From positions 186,001 to 250,000 of the forward strand of contig JAURZE010000025.1 in NCBI GenBank assembly GCA_030653545.1: a DNA stretch of 64,000 nucleotides. The letters are read 5' to 3'. A model generated the notes under the pieces. That model saw only the letters and a program-made list of their open reading frames with translations. It made no database searches and was not told the origin of the DNA. The DNA comes from Nitrospira sp. (GTDB lineage Bacteria > Nitrospirota > Nitrospiria > Nitrospirales > Nitrospiraceae). The translations under genes and the position numbers were made by a program. Below, piece after piece: positions 54,939 to 64,000 of this stretch (positions within the stretch are counted from its first letter, which is position 1; each line of letters begins with the position of its first letter).

Positions 54939-56045
54939 ATGGCGACACGTGAATTTCATGACGGCGGGCAAGACGGCTTAGAAGCCCTCGAGCCGCTCGA
55001 CCCGGACAAAATCGGCTCCTTCAACGATCTGCTGGTCGCGATGGGCAAGACAGCGTTCGGCGGCCGTCGGTTGGGCGAAGCGTTCGAAGTCCTCAATGCG
55101 ATGATCGAGGATGCCGACTGCAAGGTGGTATTGACGCTCTCCGGAGCCATGACTATCGCCAAGATGGGCAAGATCATCAGCACGATGGTGGATCGCGGCA
55201 TGGTCCACTGCATCATCTCCACCGGCGCACTGATCGCGCATGGCTTGAGCGAGTCAATCGGAAAGACGCATTATCGTGTCAATCCGGCGGTGTCTGATGA
55301 GGAGCTCTTCGAGAAGGGCTACAATCGCGTCTACGATACGTTGGAGATGGAGTCGAATCTCAACTATGTCGAGCAGGTGGTTTCGCAGACGCTGAAGCGC
55401 GTGAACTATGATGCGCCGCTCTCGTCTGAAATCCTGACGCGCGAGTTGGGTAAGACGTTGGCTGAAGAGTACGAGGGAGACGGGATTCTCAAAAGCGCGT
55501 ATCTGAAGAAAGTGCCGGTCTATATTCCGGCCTACACCGATTCGGAGATGGGATTGGATGTGGGTACCTGGGCCATGGGAAGGGCGATTGCCCAGGCCCG
55601 TTCTCAAGCGAAGCCCGGAGACGATTTGGGCTTGCTGCGCAGTCTCCATCAGTCACTCCCGTCCTTTAATCCCTACCTGGACCTCAATAGCTATGCCGGC
55701 CAGATCTTGTCCGCCAAGAAGATCGGGATTTTTACGATCGGCGGCGGGGTGCCGAGAAATTGGGCGCAACAGGTCGGACCCTATATCGAAATCGGCAATC
55801 ATCGGCTGGGCCTCTCGGTGAAGCCGCCACGGTTCCACTATGGCGTGCGGATCTGCCCCGAGCCGGATTATTGGGGCGGCTTGAGCGGGTGCACCTACCA
55901 AGAAGGAATTTCGTGGGGCAAGTTTGTTCCTCCGGCCGAGGGGGGGCGGTTTGCCGAAGTGCTCAGCGATGCGACGGTGGTGTGGCCTCTGCTGATGATG
56001 GGCCTGTTGGAGCGGCAGCGGATGCGGGATAAGCAACCATCATGA
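54939..56045 (+). CDS. Deoxyhypusine-synthase-family protein (possible homospermidine synthase)
   Basis: 368 residues spanning the DHS fold. The NAD-binding TLSGAMTIAKMGKII and the catalytic-lysine loop ISWGKF are clear; Lys328 matches human DHS Lys329. The human VKHH loop, which holds an active-site His, reads GGGVPRNW here (268-275), so the eIF5A acceptor chemistry is unlikely. Bacteria lack eIF5A, and relatives of DHS make homospermidine. With arginine decarboxylase and agmatinase downstream, a polyamine aminobutyl-transfer role is the best inference. It is coupled to the DsbA-like gene by ATGA. Confidence 0.8.
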   Translation: MATREFHDGGQDGLEALEPLDPDKIGSFNDLLVAMGKTAFGGRRLGEAFEVLNAMIEDADCKVVLTLSGAMTIAKMGKIISTMVDRGMVHCIISTGALIAHGLSESIGKTHYRVNPAVSDEELFEKGYNRVYDTLEMESNLNYVEQVVSQTLKRVNYDAPLSSEILTRELGKTLAEEYEGDGILKSAYLKKVPVYIPAYTDSEMGLDVGTWAMGRAIAQARSQAKPGDDLGLLRSLHQSLPSFNPYLDLNSYAGQILSAKKIGIFTIGGGVPRNWAQQVGPYIEIGNHRLGLSVKPPRFHYGVRICPEPDYWGGLSGCTYQEGISWGKFVPPAEGGRFAEVLSDATVVWPLLMMGLLERQRMRDKQPS

Positions 56046-56782
56046 ATAGTTCGCGGCGTGGCATCATGATCGCGGGTTGGGCGATGGCCTGCTGTGTCGC
56101 GCTCTTCCCCTCCCTGTCCGGTGCCAAGGACGAGCCCGGTCAAGCGGAGACTCGCATGCGGGGCCAGGCCAATGCGCCGGTCACGCTGATCGAGTATTCG
56201 GATTTCACCTGCGGCTACTGTTTGAAATTTTTTCGCGAGACCTGGCCGAGAATCCAAGCCCGGTATGTGGATACCGGTAAAGTGAAGTTTCTCTACCGCG
56301 ACTATCCGCGCGCTGACCAGGGACCCGGTCTCGATGCGGCGTTGGCGGCGCGTTGTGCCGGGGGCCAGGGGAAGTATTGGGCCATGCACGATCGCCTGTT
56401 TGCAGAGGGCGGGCGCATCGATCAAGCGGTTATTCTGCGGCATGCCGTCGCCATCGGGTTGACCCAATCCGTGTTTGAGCGCTGTCTCAAGGAAAAATCG
56501 CACGTCGCGTCAATTTTTGCAGATCGGGAAGAGGCCAATCGCTGGGGATTTCACGGAACCCCTGGGTTCATTCTTGTGCGGACGGCGAGCGGCCCTACGG
56601 AGAAAGAGCCTGCGATCGCGATCCCCGGAGCGTTTCCGTTCGAAATGTTTGCCGAAGAAATCGATCGGCTGCTCGCGAGTACTCCGCATTCACGCGGAGG
56701 AACAGAGCGTGAGTCTCTCATTCGACCCGTGCGGTCTGTTGAACGCTCCAGGCCGCTTGTCCGCGATCCACACGTGCCATAA
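56042..56782 (+). CDS. DsbA-family thiol oxidoreductase
   Basis: 246 residues with a signal peptide (cleavage near SGA, about 28). The thioredoxin-fold active site is CGYC (57-60) in EYSDFTCGYC, and the cis-Pro is in GTPGF. It matches the DsbA/ScsC-like group that forms or isomerises disulfides in the periplasm. The C-terminal 25 residues are Arg-rich and unusual. Its link to the polyamine genes is only positional. Confidence 0.88.
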   Translation: MNSSRRGIMIAGWAMACCVALFPSLSGAKDEPGQAETRMRGQANAPVTLIEYSDFTCGYCLKFFRETWPRIQARYVDTGKVKFLYRDYPRADQGPGLDAALAARCAGGQGKYWAMHDRLFAEGGRIDQAVILRHAVAIGLTQSVFERCLKEKSHVASIFADREEANRWGFHGTPGFILVRTASGPTEKEPAIAIPGAFPFEMFAEEIDRLLASTPHSRGGTERESLIRPVRSVERSRPLVRDPHVP

Positions 56783-56795
56783 CGTAGGAGTAACT

Positions 56796-57059
56796 ATGGC
56801 TTCCACGCAATCATTCTGGTCAGTGCCTCAGCATGAGGGGACGGCTGAGTTTTGGGTGTGCATGTCCTGTCTGGGGGAAGTGTTTTACCGAAAAGTGCCG
56901 ATGCCTGACTGTCCGTCCTGCCACGGGGTGTCCACGTATGAAAGCTTTACGTTGGAAGCCGTGCGCGATTGGGGAACGGACGAACTCATTGCGAAGGCTG
57001 CGGCTGAACAACAGGCCGCCGAGGCGGATCAGCCTGCCTCCATTCCTGCCTCGTCCTAG
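56796..57059 (+). CDS. Small zinc-ribbon protein
   Basis: 87 residues, with TAGGAG nine bases before the ATG. Two knuckles (CMSC and CPSC) frame about 20 residues, as in zinc ribbons. The C-terminal half is helical and Ala/Glu-rich. No family name known. It is cotranscribed with the aldehyde dehydrogenase, 15 bases away. Confidence 0.65.
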   Translation: MASTQSFWSVPQHEGTAEFWVCMSCLGEVFYRKVPMPDCPSCHGVSTYESFTLEAVRDWGTDELIAKAAAEQQAAEADQPASIPASS

Positions 57060-57074
57060 AGGGAGATCGCGCGT

Positions 57075-58508
57075 TTGCAGGAACCACGTCCGTTTCTCGT
57101 CCATGGAGTTTGGAAGCGCAACGCTCTCACGGCTGGCGTGACTAATCCGTTTACGGGACACGTCTTTGCGGAAGTCTGTCAGGCCGGTGAGAGCGATGTT
57201 GAAGAGGCGATTGCCTCCTCAGTGGCGGCCGCGCCCGTTATGGCGAAGCTGGCTTCCCATGCCCGCTATAATATTCTGCAGGATATGGCGGCGCTGCTCT
57301 ATCGCCGCCGCGATGAATTCGCTCAAACGATCACGGCCGAAGCCGGCAAGCCGATTGCCGACGCGAAGCGCGAGGTCAATCGCGCGGTACAGACCTTGAC
57401 GATTGCGGCTGAAGAGGCCAAGCGTATCCCCGGCGAAGTCGTGCCGCTCGATTGGACGCCCCAGACCGAATCCTATCTGGGGATGGTTCGCCGGTTTCCG
57501 CTGGGTCCGATTGTCGGCATCACGCCATTCAATTTTCCGCTCAATCTGGTCGTGCACAAGGTCGCGCCGGCGCTGGCCGCCGGCAATCCGATCCTCATCA
57601 AGCCCGCACCGCAGACCCCGCTGACCTCATTGCTCCTGGGTGAAGTGGCCTTGGAGGCCGGACTCCCTGCCGGCGGGCTGAATGTGGTGCCCTGTGACAA
57701 TGCGCTTGCGGAACGGCTGGTGATTGATCCCCGCTTCAAGTTGCTGAGTTTTACCGGCAGCGCGCCGGTCGGTTGGATGCTGAAAGCCAAGTGCGGCAAG
57801 AAGAAGGTGACGCTCGAACTCGGAGGCAATGCCGGCGTGATCATCGAGCCGGACGCCGATCTTGATCTGGCTGCCAAGCGGTGCGCCAGCGGCGGGTTTG
57901 GCTATGCCGGGCAAACGTGCATTTCGGTCCAGCGCATCCTCGTGCATCATTCGGTGGCCGATACGTTTACGACCAAACTGCTGCTGCAAGTCGCCAGGCT
58001 GAAAGCCGGTGATCCGACGGATGAGACGACGACCGTTGGTCCGTTGATCGATCCGGGGGCCACGCAGCGGGTCGAGAGATGGATTGAAGAGGCAGTGGCG
58101 CAAGGAGCCCGGGTGTTGCTGGGCGGAAAGCGCCTGGGAACGGTCTTGGAAGCCACGGTGCTCACCAATGTGAAGCCGGAGATGAAAGTGTCTTGCCAGG
58201 AAGTGTTCGGCCCCGTGGTCACGGTGTCGTCCTATCGGCAGTTCAGCGACGCCATTGCGGCGTTGAATCAATCCGACTATGGATTGCAGGCCGGCGTGTT
58301 CACGCAGGATATCAACAAGGTCTTTCACGCTTTCCGTCATTTGGAAGTGGGCGCCGTGTTAGCCAACGAGATTCCCACGTTTCGGGCGGATCACATGCCT
58401 TATGGGGGCGTAAAGGATTCCGGGTTGGGGAGAGAGGGCGTACGAGCGGCCATTGAGGATATGACTGAGCCGCGCCTGTTGGTCCTGAACCTGAAAGAGC
58501 CGGTCTGA
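57075..58508 (+). CDS. NAD(P)-dependent aldehyde dehydrogenase
   Basis: 477 residues, starting at TTG with GAGGGAG upstream. Catalytic Cys lies near 281 in GYAGQTCISVQR and the general base Glu in TLELGGN. The cofactor site is in ITPFNFPLN and SFTGSAPVG. It is closest in outline to lactaldehyde/succinate-semialdehyde and non-phosphorylating GAPDH types. In a polyamine locus it could oxidise aminoaldehydes, but the specificity is not visible in the sequence. Confidence 0.85.
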   Translation: MQEPRPFLVHGVWKRNALTAGVTNPFTGHVFAEVCQAGESDVEEAIASSVAAAPVMAKLASHARYNILQDMAALLYRRRDEFAQTITAEAGKPIADAKREVNRAVQTLTIAAEEAKRIPGEVVPLDWTPQTESYLGMVRRFPLGPIVGITPFNFPLNLVVHKVAPALAAGNPILIKPAPQTPLTSLLLGEVALEAGLPAGGLNVVPCDNALAERLVIDPRFKLLSFTGSAPVGWMLKAKCGKKKVTLELGGNAGVIIEPDADLDLAAKRCASGGFGYAGQTCISVQRILVHHSVADTFTTKLLLQVARLKAGDPTDETTTVGPLIDPGATQRVERWIEEAVAQGARVLLGGKRLGTVLEATVLTNVKPEMKVSCQEVFGPVVTVSSYRQFSDAIAALNQSDYGLQAGVFTQDINKVFHAFRHLEVGAVLANEIPTFRADHMPYGGVKDSGLGREGVRAAIEDMTEPRLLVLNLKEPV

Positions 58509-58536
58509 GGATCGTAGAAATAATCCTGTGAGGATA

Positions 58537-58565
58537 TTGCGAACCCCGGACAATCTTGGTACAAC
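58537..58565 (+). promoter_or_regulatory. Candidate promoter of the arginine decarboxylase gene
   Basis: TTGCGA (58537-58542) and TACAAC (58560-58565) are 17 bases apart, 70 bases before the start. Both boxes are moderate matches. Confidence 0.35.
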
Positions 58566-58634
58566 AGCGGCCCAATACAACGCATTGTCAATGTAGTGCA
58601 GTCAGCCTGCGGATAGACAAGGGAGACGACGACG

Positions 58635-59204
58635 ATGGTACCTACACAGATGTTTCTGACGCGAGGAGTGGGAGTTCATAAGGAGAAGCTGGCTTCTTTT
58701 GAACAAGCCCTCCGCAGTGCCGGTGTGGCTTACTGCAATCTGGTGACGGTCTCGTCGATCCTTCCGCCTAACTGCAAAATCATCCCACGCAAGCGGGGTG
58801 AAAAGCTGCTGAACCCCGGCGAAATCACTTTCTGCGTCATGGCCCGGTCAGAGACCAATGAACGCAACCGTCTCGTGTCCGCATCCATCGGACTTGCCAT
58901 TCCAACGGATCGTCAGACCTACGGCTATCTCTCCGAGCACCATGCGCACGGCGAAACCGATGAGGAGACCGGCGAATATACCGAAGATCTCGCCGCACAG
59001 ATGCTGGCGACCACCTTGGGAGTGGAGTTCGATCCGAATATTGCCTGGAAAGAGCGCGAGCAGGTCTTCAAGATGGCCGGACAAATCGTGCGCACGTTGA
59101 ATATCACCCAGTCGGCCGTCGGCAAGCCGGACCGATGGACGACGGTCATCGCATTGGCCGTCTTTATTCCCGAGGAAAATATCCCCAAGCGCTCTCGCCG
59201 CTAA
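58635..59204 (+). CDS. Pyruvoyl-dependent arginine decarboxylase
   Basis: 189 residues. The self-cleavage site is Ser40-Ser41 in [13 protein letters not shown]. Cleavage yields a beta chain (1-40) and an alpha chain whose N-terminal serine becomes the pyruvoyl cofactor. It turns arginine into agmatine. GGGAGACG precedes the ATG. This archaeal-type enzyme replaces the PLP-dependent SpeA. Agmatinase follows after 61 bases. Confidence 0.93.
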
Positions 59205-59265
59205 TCAGCGTGAGTATGTTGTCCCGCAGCACGCACACCATGCCAGCCTCTATGGTGGAACAGGT

Positions 59266-60198
59266 ATGACACTTCCTGCTGGGTGGGAAGGCCAGGACCA
59301 CAATTTCCTGGGGATCGATGAGCCCTGGTGCCATCCCGAGCAGGCGGGCGTCTATATCCTGCCGGCTCCGTACGAACACACCTCCAGCTATATTCTCGGA
59401 TCAGACCGCGGACCTTCCGCCATTCTTGAGGCGTCCGCTCAGGTAGAGTTTTACGATGAGCAGCTCGGATGCGAGCCGTTTCGTGAATGGGGCGGCATCG
59501 CGACCGCGACTACGCTCGATCTTCAAGGGCGCGTGGACGGGCCTGCGGTTGACGCGATTCAGTCATTTGTCGCCCCGCATGTCGGGACCGGGCGATTTCT
59601 TGTGACCCTCACAGGCGAGCATACAGGCGCACTCGGGGCAATTCGGGCCCATGCGAAGCGCTACCCCGATCTATGCGTGGTGCAAATCGACGCGCATGGC
59701 GATTTGCGCCAGGCCTATGGGGGAAATCCGTTTAGCCACGCGAGCGTGATGGCCCGAGTCGTCGATGATGGACATCGGCTCGTCCAGGTCGGGATTCGCT
59801 CAATCTGTCCTGAGGAAATCCAACGGATCAATACGACCAAGAGCATTGCCACGTTCTTTGCTGCGTCGATTCTCGATCCATCCGGTCCCTATGAGGGGCG
59901 GGCGGCACGGTGGGTGCCTGAAGTGGTTGCGGCCTGTACCGGACCCGTGTATCTGACGTTCGATTGCGACGGGCTGGATAGCGCCATTATCCCAGCCCTG
60001 GGTACGCCGGAACCAGGCGGACTCGGATGGTATGATACGTTGCATTTGGTCACGGCGTTGGCCAACGGTCCGGGGATTGTCGGTATGGATATCAGTGAGA
60101 TCGCTCCGATCGACGGGTTCGTGGCGCCGCAATTTGCCATCGCCCGCTTGATCTATCGCATGCTCGGCCGGATCAAAGCCGGCCGCCGGGTTCATTGA
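59266..60198 (+). CDS. speB: Agmatinase (ureohydrolase)
   Basis: 310 residues of the arginase/agmatinase family. Manganese ligands are in LTGEHTGALG (here GEHT replaces the usual GGDHS), QIDAHGDLR and TFDCDGLDSA. It hydrolyses agmatine to putrescine and urea. It follows the arginine decarboxylase in the same direction. The product could feed the DHS-like enzyme. The Gly-to-Thr and Asp-to-Glu changes in the first motif deserve notice but occur in relatives. Confidence 0.9.
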   Translation: MTLPAGWEGQDHNFLGIDEPWCHPEQAGVYILPAPYEHTSSYILGSDRGPSAILEASAQVEFYDEQLGCEPFREWGGIATATTLDLQGRVDGPAVDAIQSFVAPHVGTGRFLVTLTGEHTGALGAIRAHAKRYPDLCVVQIDAHGDLRQAYGGNPFSHASVMARVVDDGHRLVQVGIRSICPEEIQRINTTKSIATFFAASILDPSGPYEGRAARWVPEVVAACTGPVYLTFDCDGLDSAIIPALGTPEPGGLGWYDTLHLVTALANGPGIVGMDISEIAPIDGFVAPQFAIARLIYRMLGRIKAGRRVH

Positions 60199-60211: not shown

Positions 60212-60949
60212 ATGACGCGCGACGTTCAGCCCGCGCCTTCTTCTCCCATCCGCATCAATAAGTTTTTTACCGAGCATGGCATTTGTTCCAGGCGCGAGGC
60301 GGATCAGCGCGTCGAAGCGGGACGCGTGACCGTCAACGGGGTTGTCGCGACGCTGGGTGACCGGGTGAGTCGGACGGATGTCGTCGCCTGCGACGGGACT
60401 GTGATTCCCTGGGGCCAGGCTTTTCTTTACATCAAGTACCACAAACCGGTCGGGGTGACGACGACGAGCGAGTCGCACGTGCCTCGGAATATCATCGCCG
60501 AAATCGGACATCCCGACCGGATCTTCCCGATCGGGCGGCTGGATAAGGATTCATCCGGTCTGATTCTGCTGACGAATGACGGAAATATTGTGAACGATAT
60601 CCTGCGCGTGGAATTCGGCCACGAACGGGAATATGTGGTGGATGTCGATCGACCGTTCGACGAGGCCTTCCTCAGGCAGATGGCAGAGGGGGTGGTTATT
60701 CTCGGCAGCAAGACAAGGCCGTGCCGCATGGAGCGCGTGCGGCCCCACCGGTTTCGTATCATCTTGACGGAGGGGCGCAATCGCCAGATCCGGCGGATGT
60801 GTCAGGCGTTGGGCTATCGAGTGACGGGGCTACACCGTGTCCGGATCATGCACATCGGCATTACCGGTTTGGGGGCGGGAAGCTGGAAGGAACTCTCGGC
60901 TGACGAACGGGTTGAGCTTTTTCGGGCAGTCGGGCGTCCGCCGGGTTAG
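60212..60949 (+). CDS. rluF: RluF/RluB-type 23S rRNA pseudouridine synthase
   Basis: 245 residues. An S4 RNA-binding domain (RINKFFTEHGICSRREADQ) is followed by the catalytic domain with Asp in GRLDKDSSGLILLTNDG and the EGRNRQIRRMC block. The subfamily RluF is favoured by the lack of a long linker, but RluB or RluE is possible. It is 13 bases after agmatinase and overlaps the next convergent gene by 4 bases. Confidence 0.9.
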   Translation: MTRDVQPAPSSPIRINKFFTEHGICSRREADQRVEAGRVTVNGVVATLGDRVSRTDVVACDGTVIPWGQAFLYIKYHKPVGVTTTSESHVPRNIIAEIGHPDRIFPIGRLDKDSSGLILLTNDGNIVNDILRVEFGHEREYVVDVDRPFDEAFLRQMAEGVVILGSKTRPCRMERVRPHRFRIILTEGRNRQIRRMCQALGYRVTGLHRVRIMHIGITGLGAGSWKELSADERVELFRAVGRPPG

Positions 60950-61734
60950 TGGGTCTCGCTTGGGATGGGCGAAGCGGATGGTCCGCCGACATGCGCCCGG
61001 TCGGTCGCGCCTGAAGGAAGATCATCTGCCGCATCATTGTCGTCGTCGACCGGCTTTCTGCGTTGGCCCAGGAAGAGGTTGAGCAGCGCAATGAAGAAGC
61101 TCCCGCCCACTAATGTCATGCTGCTGGCCTGAATCGTCTTTGTTCCCTCATCGCGCATATCCTTCGCCACATCGGCAACGGTATCCAACAGATGGTCTAA
61201 GGCCAAGCTCACCTGAATCATTTTGGGGCCGGCATTGTCGGAGGCATGCTCTTCTGCTTTTCTCCGGAGCGCTTCGCGTTCGGCCGGAGAATTGGCCGTC
61301 CATTCCTGTGTCAGGAGCTGAACGGTCGTGCTGGCTGCGGAGAAGTATTGATCGAGGCTGCGTCGAACGGATTCGATGTCCTCCGGTTCGCTCCGTCCGC
61401 TTCGGGAGACGCGCAGGCCTGCCGCCGCGTACCGGTCGATGGCATGTTGAATCTTCGCCCGCTGAACGGGGAGCGATTCCGTGATGCGTTCGAAGTCCTT
61501 TTGACTGTCGGCTTCCAGGGCTCGAATAATCGTATTGCGGTAGCGCATGGTGTCGGCCGAAATATGCGCGAGGTCGGTCGCGCCGAGTGTGTATTCCGTA
61601 TACATGATGCGCAGGTCCTGGTCGACCTGGCTCAGGGTCTGTCCGCTATACCAGCCGATCCCGGCGATGAGCACGCTGATCAGCAGTTGGGCGCCGGTCG
61701 GTTTAGGGATAGGAAGACGATCGAGCAGTCCCAC
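60946..61734 (-). CDS. Membrane protein with a periplasmic four-helix bundle sensor fold
   Basis: 262 residues: a first membrane helix (about 15-34), about 160 residues of amphipathic helices (QVDQDLRIMYTEYT..., MRYRNTIIRALEADSQKDFERI) like the 4HB_MCP domain, a second membrane helix (about 205-225), and a short acidic, disordered tail. No methyl-accepting, kinase or cyclase output is present, so it may sense without direct output or serve as a scaffold. It lies 14 bases after the ABC gene. Confidence 0.7.
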   Translation of the reverse strand: MGLLDRLPIPKPTGAQLLISVLIAGIGWYSGQTLSQVDQDLRIMYTEYTLGATDLAHISADTMRYRNTIIRALEADSQKDFERITESLPVQRAKIQHAIDRYAAAGLRVSRSGRSEPEDIESVRRSLDQYFSAASTTVQLLTQEWTANSPAEREALRRKAEEHASDNAGPKMIQVSLALDHLLDTVADVAKDMRDEGTKTIQASSMTLVGGSFFIALLNLFLGQRRKPVDDDNDAADDLPSGATDRAHVGGPSASPIPSETH

Positions 61735-61748
61735 AACAGTGTCCTTGG

Positions 61749-63416
61749 TTAATCGATGATGATTCGGCGGTCGACGTGAGGCGTCAGATTGGGATCGTTG
61801 GAGACGAAGACGACCGACCAGGGCTCGTCTTTCGAGCAGAGACGCCGGAGAATGGTCTCCCGCATCGTCGGGTGCATGTTGTGAATGATCCCGTCAAAAA
61901 TAAGAATCTGCGGCCTGGCGAGGATGGCGCGCGCGAGCAGGATTCTCATAATGTGGGTCGGAGCCAGCACTTTGCCGGGTGTCCGTACGTGGGACTTGAT
62001 GCCTTGTGGTAAGGCATCGATCTCTTCTTCCAGTTCCGTGAAGCGGAGCGCCCAGCGGACATCGCTGTAAGGCACATAGGACCGGCCTAATACGATGTTT
62101 TCTTCGATCGTGCCCTCGAACAGGGTGAGTTGGGAGTCGAGCATGAATCCACGGCAGCGGTTGACGGTCGTTCGATCCAGGTGTCGGAGATCCACCCCGT
62201 TGTAGCGGAGGACGCCATGGGTTGGAGCTTCCAATCCTGCGAGGACTCGGGCGAGAGCCGTTTTCGCGACGGTGGTGCTGGCATAGATGCCGACTTTTTC
62301 ACCCGGCATGACTTCCAGATCGAAGTTGGAAAAAATGGAAGAGGTTCCAGGATGCGCAACCGCCAGGTCTTTGCACGTGAGCCGAATTCCGTGGATAGTG
62401 GGGTCCGGCAAGGGGACGGACAGTGTCGCCGATTCCTGGTCTTTCGGGAGCGCAAAGAACTCGTCGAGCTCTGTCAACGCGGTCATAAAGTAATAGACGT
62501 GGCCCATCCGCTTGACGACGCCGTCGAAGCTCGTGAGGATTCCTGCTACCACCACTTCGGCGGCTACCAATTGTCCGATCGTCAATTGACCGATCGAGAG
62601 GAGCCACCCGGCGGTGGCAATGAGGCTGCTGTGGCCAATAGCCTGCCATCCGACTGAGCTCAGGTATTGCCGTGCTAGCACGGCAAAGCGTTCTCGTCTA
62701 GTGGCGACATAGTTGTCGACCAGCTGATCGGACTTCTGCATGAGCAGCGGTTGGCTATCGGTCGCTTTGAAATGCAGGAGGTTGTAAGAGATTTCCTGCA
62801 TCCAATGCAGCGTCTCATATTTGGCATGGGATACGGCGATGGTGGTTCGTAAGCCGCCGTGCGAGAGCAGGAAGAAGATCACGTTGAAGCCCGCGAGCAA
62901 CAGGGCGTCGTACAGCAGGAAATAGGGATGGTAGAACACCAGAATGGACATTCCCACCGCTCCGCCGACGACCACGTTGATCAAGTCGACGAGCAAGACG
63001 GAGAGGGCGCGCTGCATTAACACTGTTTCGAGAAAATAGTTGGCGTAGCGCGGCTTGAACTTCTGATATTGCATGAGCGGAAGTTGTTGCGTCATGGCGA
63101 GCGTCACGCGCGCGAACACCCGTCGCTCCAGCACTTCGACGGCATAATACTGGAGGGTTTTGAAGACGCCGACAAAGGCCAGGGCCGATGCCATGATGAC
63201 CGCCAGAGTCACAATGGTGATGGGCTGAATCGCGAAGGCGAAGGTGTTAACGAGTTCCTGAACCGTCAACGGCACAATCAGTGAGAAGAGTCCGATCGCA
63301 AGCGAATAGGAAAAGATGAGCCCGAGGACTTTCTTCTCGAGGCGGAAGAGGAGCCCCAGGTGTCCCAGCATGGCCTGGAAAAGGTTCGGCTGCGTATCAG
63401 AATGGCCTTGGGCCAT
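61749..63416 (-). CDS. ABC exporter (membrane domain + degenerate ATPase)
   Basis: 555 residues. The N-terminal membrane domain has about six hydrophobic helices. The nucleotide-binding domain aligns well, but nearly all catalytic motifs are damaged. Walker A reads GIYASTTVAKTAL (no glycine loop, Lys and Thr kept), the Q-loop Gln is Asp (FMLDSQL), LSGGQ is LAPTH, Walker B is ILIFDG with Glu missing, and the switch His is Asn (VSNDPN). It lies 142 bases from a TolC-family gene. It probably cannot hydrolyse ATP alone and may pair with an active subunit or have become a scaffold. Confidence 0.85.
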   Translation of the reverse strand: MAQGHSDTQPNLFQAMLGHLGLLFRLEKKVLGLIFSYSLAIGLFSLIVPLTVQELVNTFAFAIQPITIVTLAVIMASALAFVGVFKTLQYYAVEVLERRVFARVTLAMTQQLPLMQYQKFKPRYANYFLETVLMQRALSVLLVDLINVVVGGAVGMSILVFYHPYFLLYDALLLAGFNVIFFLLSHGGLRTTIAVSHAKYETLHWMQEISYNLLHFKATDSQPLLMQKSDQLVDNYVATRRERFAVLARQYLSSVGWQAIGHSSLIATAGWLLSIGQLTIGQLVAAEVVVAGILTSFDGVVKRMGHVYYFMTALTELDEFFALPKDQESATLSVPLPDPTIHGIRLTCKDLAVAHPGTSSIFSNFDLEVMPGEKVGIYASTTVAKTALARVLAGLEAPTHGVLRYNGVDLRHLDRTTVNRCRGFMLDSQLTLFEGTIEENIVLGRSYVPYSDVRWALRFTELEEEIDALPQGIKSHVRTPGKVLAPTHIMRILLARAILARPQILIFDGIIHNMHPTMRETILRRLCSKDEPWSVVFVSNDPNLTPHVDRRIIID

Positions 63417-63558: not shown

Positions 63559-64000
63559 TTAGTCACGAGACCGGTAATTGACCGGGACTGCGCTCGGGTT
63601 GCTTTTGGCCCAGGCGCCGATGGCCCATTGGTACAGAGCCTGGGCTTTCTGGTAGTCGGCCTTGGCGCGAATCACCTGCGCTTCGGAGTCCACCGAATTG
63701 CGCTCGCGAAGATTCACGAAGAGAACGCTGGTGGCGCCCAACCCAAAGCGGAATCGTTCGCCTTCTTCGAGTGTTTTGGCGAGGCGCAAGGATTGGACGG
63801 CAGCCTCCATTCGCTCTTTGGCTCGCTCGATCGCCGAAAGGGCGTTATCGACATCGACGACCACCTGCTGTTCACGGAATTTTTGGACCATGACGAAGCG
63901 GTCTGCTTTGCCCTGCGCTTCAAGTACTTCGCCGCGGCTCCGACGTTGGAGAATGGGGATTCTGAGTTCAAGGCCAAAGCGGTACCCGAGGCCGAGCACG
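63559..64000 (-). CDS. TolC-family outer-membrane efflux protein (N-terminus beyond window)
   Basis: The last 146 or so residues of a TolC/OprM-type protein; the frame is open to the window edge. The long alpha-helical repeats typical of the second half are seen: REQQVVVDVDNALSAIERAKERM and the later EEGERFRFGLGATSVLFV, then AQALYQWAIG. It forms an outer-membrane channel for efflux or type I secretion with the adjacent ABC protein. No HlyD-like adaptor lies between them. Confidence 0.85.
   Translation of the reverse strand, partial: VLGLGYRFGLELRIPILQRRSRGEVLEAQGKADRFVMVQKFREQQVVVDVDNALSAIERAKERMEAAVQSLRLAKTLEEGERFRFGLGATSVLFVNLRERNSVDSEAQVIRAKADYQKAQALYQWAIGAWAKSNPSAVPVNYRSRD

Follow-up and report, generated by a model that had tools for sequence, protein, structure and literature searches.

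A HlyB-like ABC exporter with degenerate ATP-site motifs, conserved beside HlyD and TolC genes in Nitrospirales

ATP-driven transport is the defining property of ABC exporters. In the solved HlyB/HlyD complex, three HlyB dimers are associated with six HlyD (PMC11026475), and an RxxxLxxxxxxS/T motif has been shown to bind TolC in HlyD, MacA and AcrA (PMC3391258). A missing catalytic Glu is a hallmark of a degenerate site (PMC7544095), and in the degenerate heterodimers that are known one composite site remains complete (PMC7756269). In SbmA/BacA (SLiPT), proton-driven peptide transport takes place on an ABC-exporter transmembrane domain (TMD), and SLiPTs have been proposed as descendants of full ABC transporters (PMC13316013). 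Loci encoding HlyD and OEP together with SecA_DEAD, which have type I secretion-like adaptors and are devoid of any ABC protein, have also been described, Nitrospirae included (Kamneva 2015, PMC4452313).

The gene studied here, hereafter copy A, is found in a stretch of 64,000 nucleotides (the window; bases 186001-250000 of contig C25) from a Nitrospira genome of 3.94 Mb. The original prediction, made from the letters of the window, regarded it as an ABC exporter of unbroken frame and preserved fold but with nearly all its ATPase motifs changed, lying next to a TolC gene, and proposed either selection for a non-catalytic role or a heterodimer. The features of the gene and its neighbours are collected in Table 1.

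Table 1. Features of the copy A locus, in window positions; those past 64000 are window-equivalent positions on the contig.
Feature	Position	Strand	Remarks
4HB_MCP_1/TarH-like membrane protein	60946..61734	(-)	without matched HAMP or signalling output domain
Pseudo-ABC exporter, copy A (TMD and degenerate NBD)	61749..63416	(-)	555 aa, ATG start, open ORF
Degenerate nucleotide-binding domain (NBD), ~residues 343-555	61752..62390	(-)	Pfam match, AF2 model, alignment
Switch His position, Asn540	61797..61799	(-)	alignment
Walker B remnant ILIFDG, residues 504-509	61890..61907	(-)	Gly for catalytic Glu; alignment
Signature remnant LAPTH, residues 484-488	61953..61967	(-)	alignment
Q-loop position, Ser428 for Gln	62133..62135	(-)	Gln at 429; alignment
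Walker A remnant ASTTVAKTA, residues 379-387	62256..62282	(-)	glycines gone, Lys and Thr remain
Transmembrane domain, ~residues 20-335	62412..63359	(-)	AF2 model secondary structure
Arg243, long TM5 helix	62688..62690	(-)	95/95 Nitrospirales; His in intact and Bacteroidota relatives
Glu54, TM1	63255..63257	(-)	95/95 Nitrospirales; absent from intact and Bacteroidota relatives (mostly Ala)
TolC-type outer-membrane efflux protein, C-terminal part	63559..64000	(-)	complete on contig to 65040, 493 aa
HlyD, 494 aa	65167-66651		past window end; adjoins TolC on contig

The reading frame is indeed intact, and copy A is a single chain with the type IV ABC exporter fold, in which the TMD precedes the NBD, according to its AF2 model and to profile alignment. 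The model (pLDDT 81.9) predicts the NBD fold with confidence and has HlyB (8dck) as its top structural match (TMq 0.89; Z 29.0, 2.7 A across 537 residues), and HlyB aligns with the profile of the copy A family over nearly its full length (E 1.7e-54), so that the fold was rightly described as kept. Among family models, Pfam ABC_tran recognises copy A with a modest excess (37.3 bits, cut-off 25) and the ABC_membrane cut-off is not reached, while under TIGR03375, a curated model for type I secretion, it falls short (122.9 bits against a cut-off of 693); type I secretion exporters are among its best NCBIfam matches, all of them far under their cut-offs.

Alignment confirmed every change originally reported for the ATP site, from the glycine loop of Walker A to the Q-loop, LSGGQ, the catalytic Glu and the switch His, and added the D-loop, which reads HNMH where the canonical sequence is SALD. 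GxxGxGKS/T has been replaced by ASTTVAKT, LSGGQ by LAPTH and LDE by FDG; the loss of the Q-loop depends on the alignment, because a Gln stands one residue off that column (LDSQ). Four of 16 canonical ATP-site residues are kept (Lys and Thr in Walker A, Asp in Walker B and the leading Leu of the signature); three intact exporters of this genome have 15-16 of them, and four near-intact relatives 14. No functional Walker A, Walker B with its Glu, signature or switch His was found in copy A, which is a HlyB-type exporter by its fold and partner genes that fails the ATPase feature defining the family. Judged from its sequence, the protein would be devoid of ATPase activity.

A family scan of 59 genomes, followed by one of 245 genomes of the phylum, gave strong matches only inside Nitrospirales, the order of the source genome. 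Among 95 distinct near-full-length members from this order, none has the catalytic Glu (94 Gly, 1 Ser) or the switch His, the first two glycines of Walker A are absent from all and the third is present in 10, and between 1 and 7 of the 16 canonical residues remain. Conservation extends to the motifs that stand in for the canonical ones (DSQ/DSH, DG, and SNDP or STDP). When the comparison is confined to those NBD columns at which canonical and intact sequences are conserved, 2 of 13 catalytic columns are kept in most Nitrospirales versus 27 of 43 others, with a Fisher p of 0.004 that is rough because alignment columns are not independent. The Walker A Lys persists in 81/95 members, and 77/95 retain the Walker B Asp, so that an unorthodox site in the family may still bind nucleotide or hydrolyse it slowly. 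On a tree built from the TMD only, the fewest changes required are one for the Glu, one for the His, two for the Walker A Lys, three for the Walker B Asp and five for the Walker A S/T, and such repeated changes of Lys, S/T and Asp are as would be expected if the ATP site had been freed after one early event.

Stop-free, full-length frames are the rule among family members. In four groups, the ABC gene as a whole had a dN/dS of 0.07-0.12 and its NBD one of 0.045-0.22, with 0.045 for TolC and 0.042 for HlyD as comparison genes; these NG86 pairwise values are rough where dS exceeds 1, yet nowhere near 1. By this measure the NBDs of the copy A family are under purifying selection, which, together with degeneracy in 95/95 Nitrospirales members, bears out the proposal of selection for a non-catalytic role. 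Intact orthologues, which would have pointed to a decaying copy, were absent from the orthologue alignment of the order, and near-intact members occur only in other phyla.

These near-intact relatives belong to Melainabacteria, other MAGs labelled Cyanobacteria, Armatimonadota and one acidobacterium (Blastocatellia, Acidobacteriota). They possess Walker A, an LSRGQ-type signature, the Glu and the His, and are without the Q-loop Gln; in L047-L054, L075, L081, L087 and L088, a VGDxN-like stretch replaces VPQD at this position. The loss of the Q-loop may predate the loss of catalysis, because the near-intact relatives share it. Bacteroidota relatives are intermediate, keeping most of Walker A and an Asp or Glu at the catalytic position, with signature and His mostly lost. 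Some Flavobacteriaceae sequences (L072, L073, L076, L080, L082, L083) show a Walker B of the form LLLLEDP, in which the Glu and Asp positions are swapped, and an Asp at the switch His, and this NBD type is distinct and non-canonical. Four other sequences from Bacteroidota, Gemmatimonadota and Chlorobi-type bacteria (L055, L062, L071, L090) are longer at the N-terminus by ~180-200 residues, for which Pfam gives no matching family, with Walker A mostly kept and the signature lost or altered. HlyD and TolC adjoin nearly all of these outside relatives, whether near-intact or from Bacteroidota, where the flanking sequence suffices. The Nitrospirales branch is starred at 100 in the tree, in which the deep branch order and the direction of stepwise erosion are unsure because it was built by a quick method and has long branches.

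The source locus runs in the order HlyD, TolC, pseudo-ABC and 4HB_MCP/TarH-like protein, and is flanked by what we take to be purEK-like and rsuA-like genes, one on each side. Neighbouring ORFs in 54939-60198 resemble a deoxyhypusine synthase-like protein, a pyruvoyl-dependent arginine decarboxylase and an agmatinase-like protein, presumably a polyamine-type cluster. The TolC gene noticed at the outset is cut by the end of the window and complete on the contig. Beyond that end, where HlyD and an intact partner ABC were to be sought, HlyD was found just past the border and no intact ABC occurs in the operon. Copy A is linked in this way to a HlyD-type adaptor and a TolC-type outer-membrane factor in the loci with sufficient flank, and the set of pseudo-ABC, TolC and HlyD is conserved beside purEK in most loci. 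In the main Nitrospira clade (L137:3355-11517 and others), three tandem TolC genes are followed by the pseudo-ABC and HlyD. A divergent LysR regulator of the NhaR type (245 bits, cut-off 219) accompanies the seven main-clade loci checked, and small ORFs in their rsuA-TolC and HlyD-purE gaps yielded no clear conserved peptide gene as a substrate candidate, only this regulator and overlapping antisense or frame-shifted ORFs. All 57 Nitrospirales HlyDs carry the RxxxLxxxxxxS/T pattern of TolC docking (RHKQLAEQGLVS from residue 226 in the source HlyD); this loose pattern turns up in ~15% of shuffled windows, so that its constancy is what counts. With the motif in 57/57 proteins, the machine's outer part thus appears to be in working order.

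Taking together the clade-wide degeneracy, the purifying selection, the gene partnership, the fold and the docking motif of HlyD, we consider it probable that copy A is a pseudo-ATPase HlyB-type inner-membrane subunit that is retained to work within a HlyD-TolC complex of the type I secretion-like kind; the assembly of this complex, its source of energy and the very existence of transport are what we infer. Copy A would probably form a homodimer in the source genome, and either a homodimer or a heterodimer with an equally dead paralogue in those genomes with tandem copies. HlyD would assemble on the pseudo-ABC dimer and dock TolC, with the pseudo-ABC holding or gating the resulting conduit. 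The NBDs could act as a dimer clamp or an allosteric platform, since no nucleotide site would hydrolyse ATP in the ordinary manner, and any transport would be driven by something other than the NBD of copy A, an ion or proton gradient or the binding of substrate being the likeliest candidates.

A different division of labour, in which the pseudo-ABC serves as a scaffold and takes up some of the places in a HlyB-like ring while a canonical exporter encoded elsewhere hydrolyses the ATP, is unlikely. The stoichiometry of three dimers and six adaptors leaves space for non-catalytic members, and the source genome encodes six other exporters whose motifs all look intact. However, all six stand in gene contexts of another kind and none adjoins a HlyD of copy A's family, of which the genome holds one clear copy, several of them belong to other pathways by gene context, and no intact partner is linked to copy A in any Nitrospirales locus examined.

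Under the preferred reading of a pseudo-ATPase subunit, some residues and neighbours offer a clue to ion coupling, and no more than a clue: Glu54 and Arg243, the NhaR-type regulator, and the gene context of a paralogue. This degenerate paralogue, copy B, is 46% identical to copy A, lies 83 kb upstream (L117:7836-9518; G000:C25:163841-165475) and adjoins a CPA2-type cation:proton antiporter of the Na+/H+-exchanger family, an arrangement conserved in near relatives; no HlyD or TolC homologue was found near it. A Glu ladder like that of SbmA is absent from the TMD of copy A, where Glu54 is the only clade-specific membrane acid. As a tentative and rather doubtful proposal, the family could represent an ABC-derived secondary transporter within a HlyD-TolC machine, whose loss of hydrolysis became fixed in the family's Nitrospirales ancestor. 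The TM1 Glu and the TM5 Arg would have been gained together with that loss, a proton or sodium gradient would drive transport, and the NBD would have been kept only as a clamp. If this were true, the family would stand midway in evolution between ABC exporters and transporters of the SbmA type.

The pseudo-ABC might instead belong to a device that transports nothing actively and that senses, together with the 4HB_MCP-like protein, a ligand or ion state in order to gate HlyD-TolC, which we judge improbable. The 4HB_MCP/TarH-like gene, whose product has no matched output domain, is a conserved operon neighbour in the source clade and sister genera, and the divergent NhaR-type regulator would suit such a role, but the main Nitrospira clade yielded no 4HB homologue at its locus.

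The heterodimer of the original prediction, which would pair a dead NBD with an intact one in the manner of TM287/288, TmrAB or TAP, is not supported and is very improbable. Many genomes of sister genera (~18 by position) do carry a tandem second ABC gene, ~52% identical to the window gene, immediately next to copy A, but in 10/10 of the loci read, one of them frame-broken, the partner has Gly for the catalytic Glu and lacks both the switch His and LSGGQ; therefore, the pair encoded by such a locus is dead plus dead. In some of these pairs the partner has Asn for the Walker B Asp, and the adjoining copy A has Glu at the same position. The source operon contains no second ABC gene, and its genome offers only the unlinked and equally dead copy B. 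A linked partner able to complete one composite site is absent at the source locus and degenerate elsewhere, which leaves room for an unlinked one; yet both composite sites would lack elements, as a copy A-type subunit would spoil the two of them even beside an intact partner, because its own site and its signature are both lost (composite-site geometry, PMC7756269). Finally, a gene heading for loss or an assembly artefact can hardly be entertained, for although broken copies exist (G002, G015 and one tandem copy in G191) and near-complete genomes of the genus without the gene are known (G021, G157), the number of distinct members and a synteny conserved across genera speak against it, and dN/dS far under 1 with conserved replacement motifs led us to reject it for the family as a whole.

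In the open-access literature, most subscription journals being outside the scope of the search, we found no description of the copy A family. Nitrospira are major nitrite oxidisers in soils and water treatment, and these bacteria seem to share, in the copy A locus, an envelope system that is so far unexplored. Much of Nitrospirales keeps an ABC exporter, with several duplications and with a linked type I adaptor and channel, in which both possible ATP sites are dead. Together with the near-intact relatives from other phyla and the half-eroded ones from Bacteroidota, it offers a natural series on the purpose of an NBD after the loss of hydrolysis and on how ABC transporters can switch their energy source.

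Among the known systems, HlyB of hemolysin type I secretion (PDB 8dck, 7sgr) resembles copy A in fold, in profile alignment and in its HlyD and TolC gene partners. Unlike HlyB, copy A has no N-terminal C39-like domain, the alignment starting at about HlyB residue 135-140, has lost the catalytic Glu, the switch His, the signature and the Walker A glycines, and has no recognised substrate gene adjoining it. The loci described by Kamneva encode a SecA_DEAD ATPase and a peptidase_M50 with no ABC homologue, and neither protein was recognised at the source locus; a locus of this type (PMC4452313) was rejected, as no SecA-like gene was recognised among the neighbours read. TM287/288, TmrAB, TAP, CFTR and the ABCC family share with copy A the missing catalytic Glu, but they keep one consensus composite site, whereas in copy A neither site would be canonical and the tandem partner of sister genera is degenerate too. 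With SbmA, copy A would share an ABC-exporter TMD that runs without ATP hydrolysis, which has been demonstrated for SbmA and is conjectural for copy A; SbmA has lost the NBD and the coupling helices and bears a ladder of six Glu, whereas copy A has kept its NBD and carries a single clade-specific transmembrane Glu.
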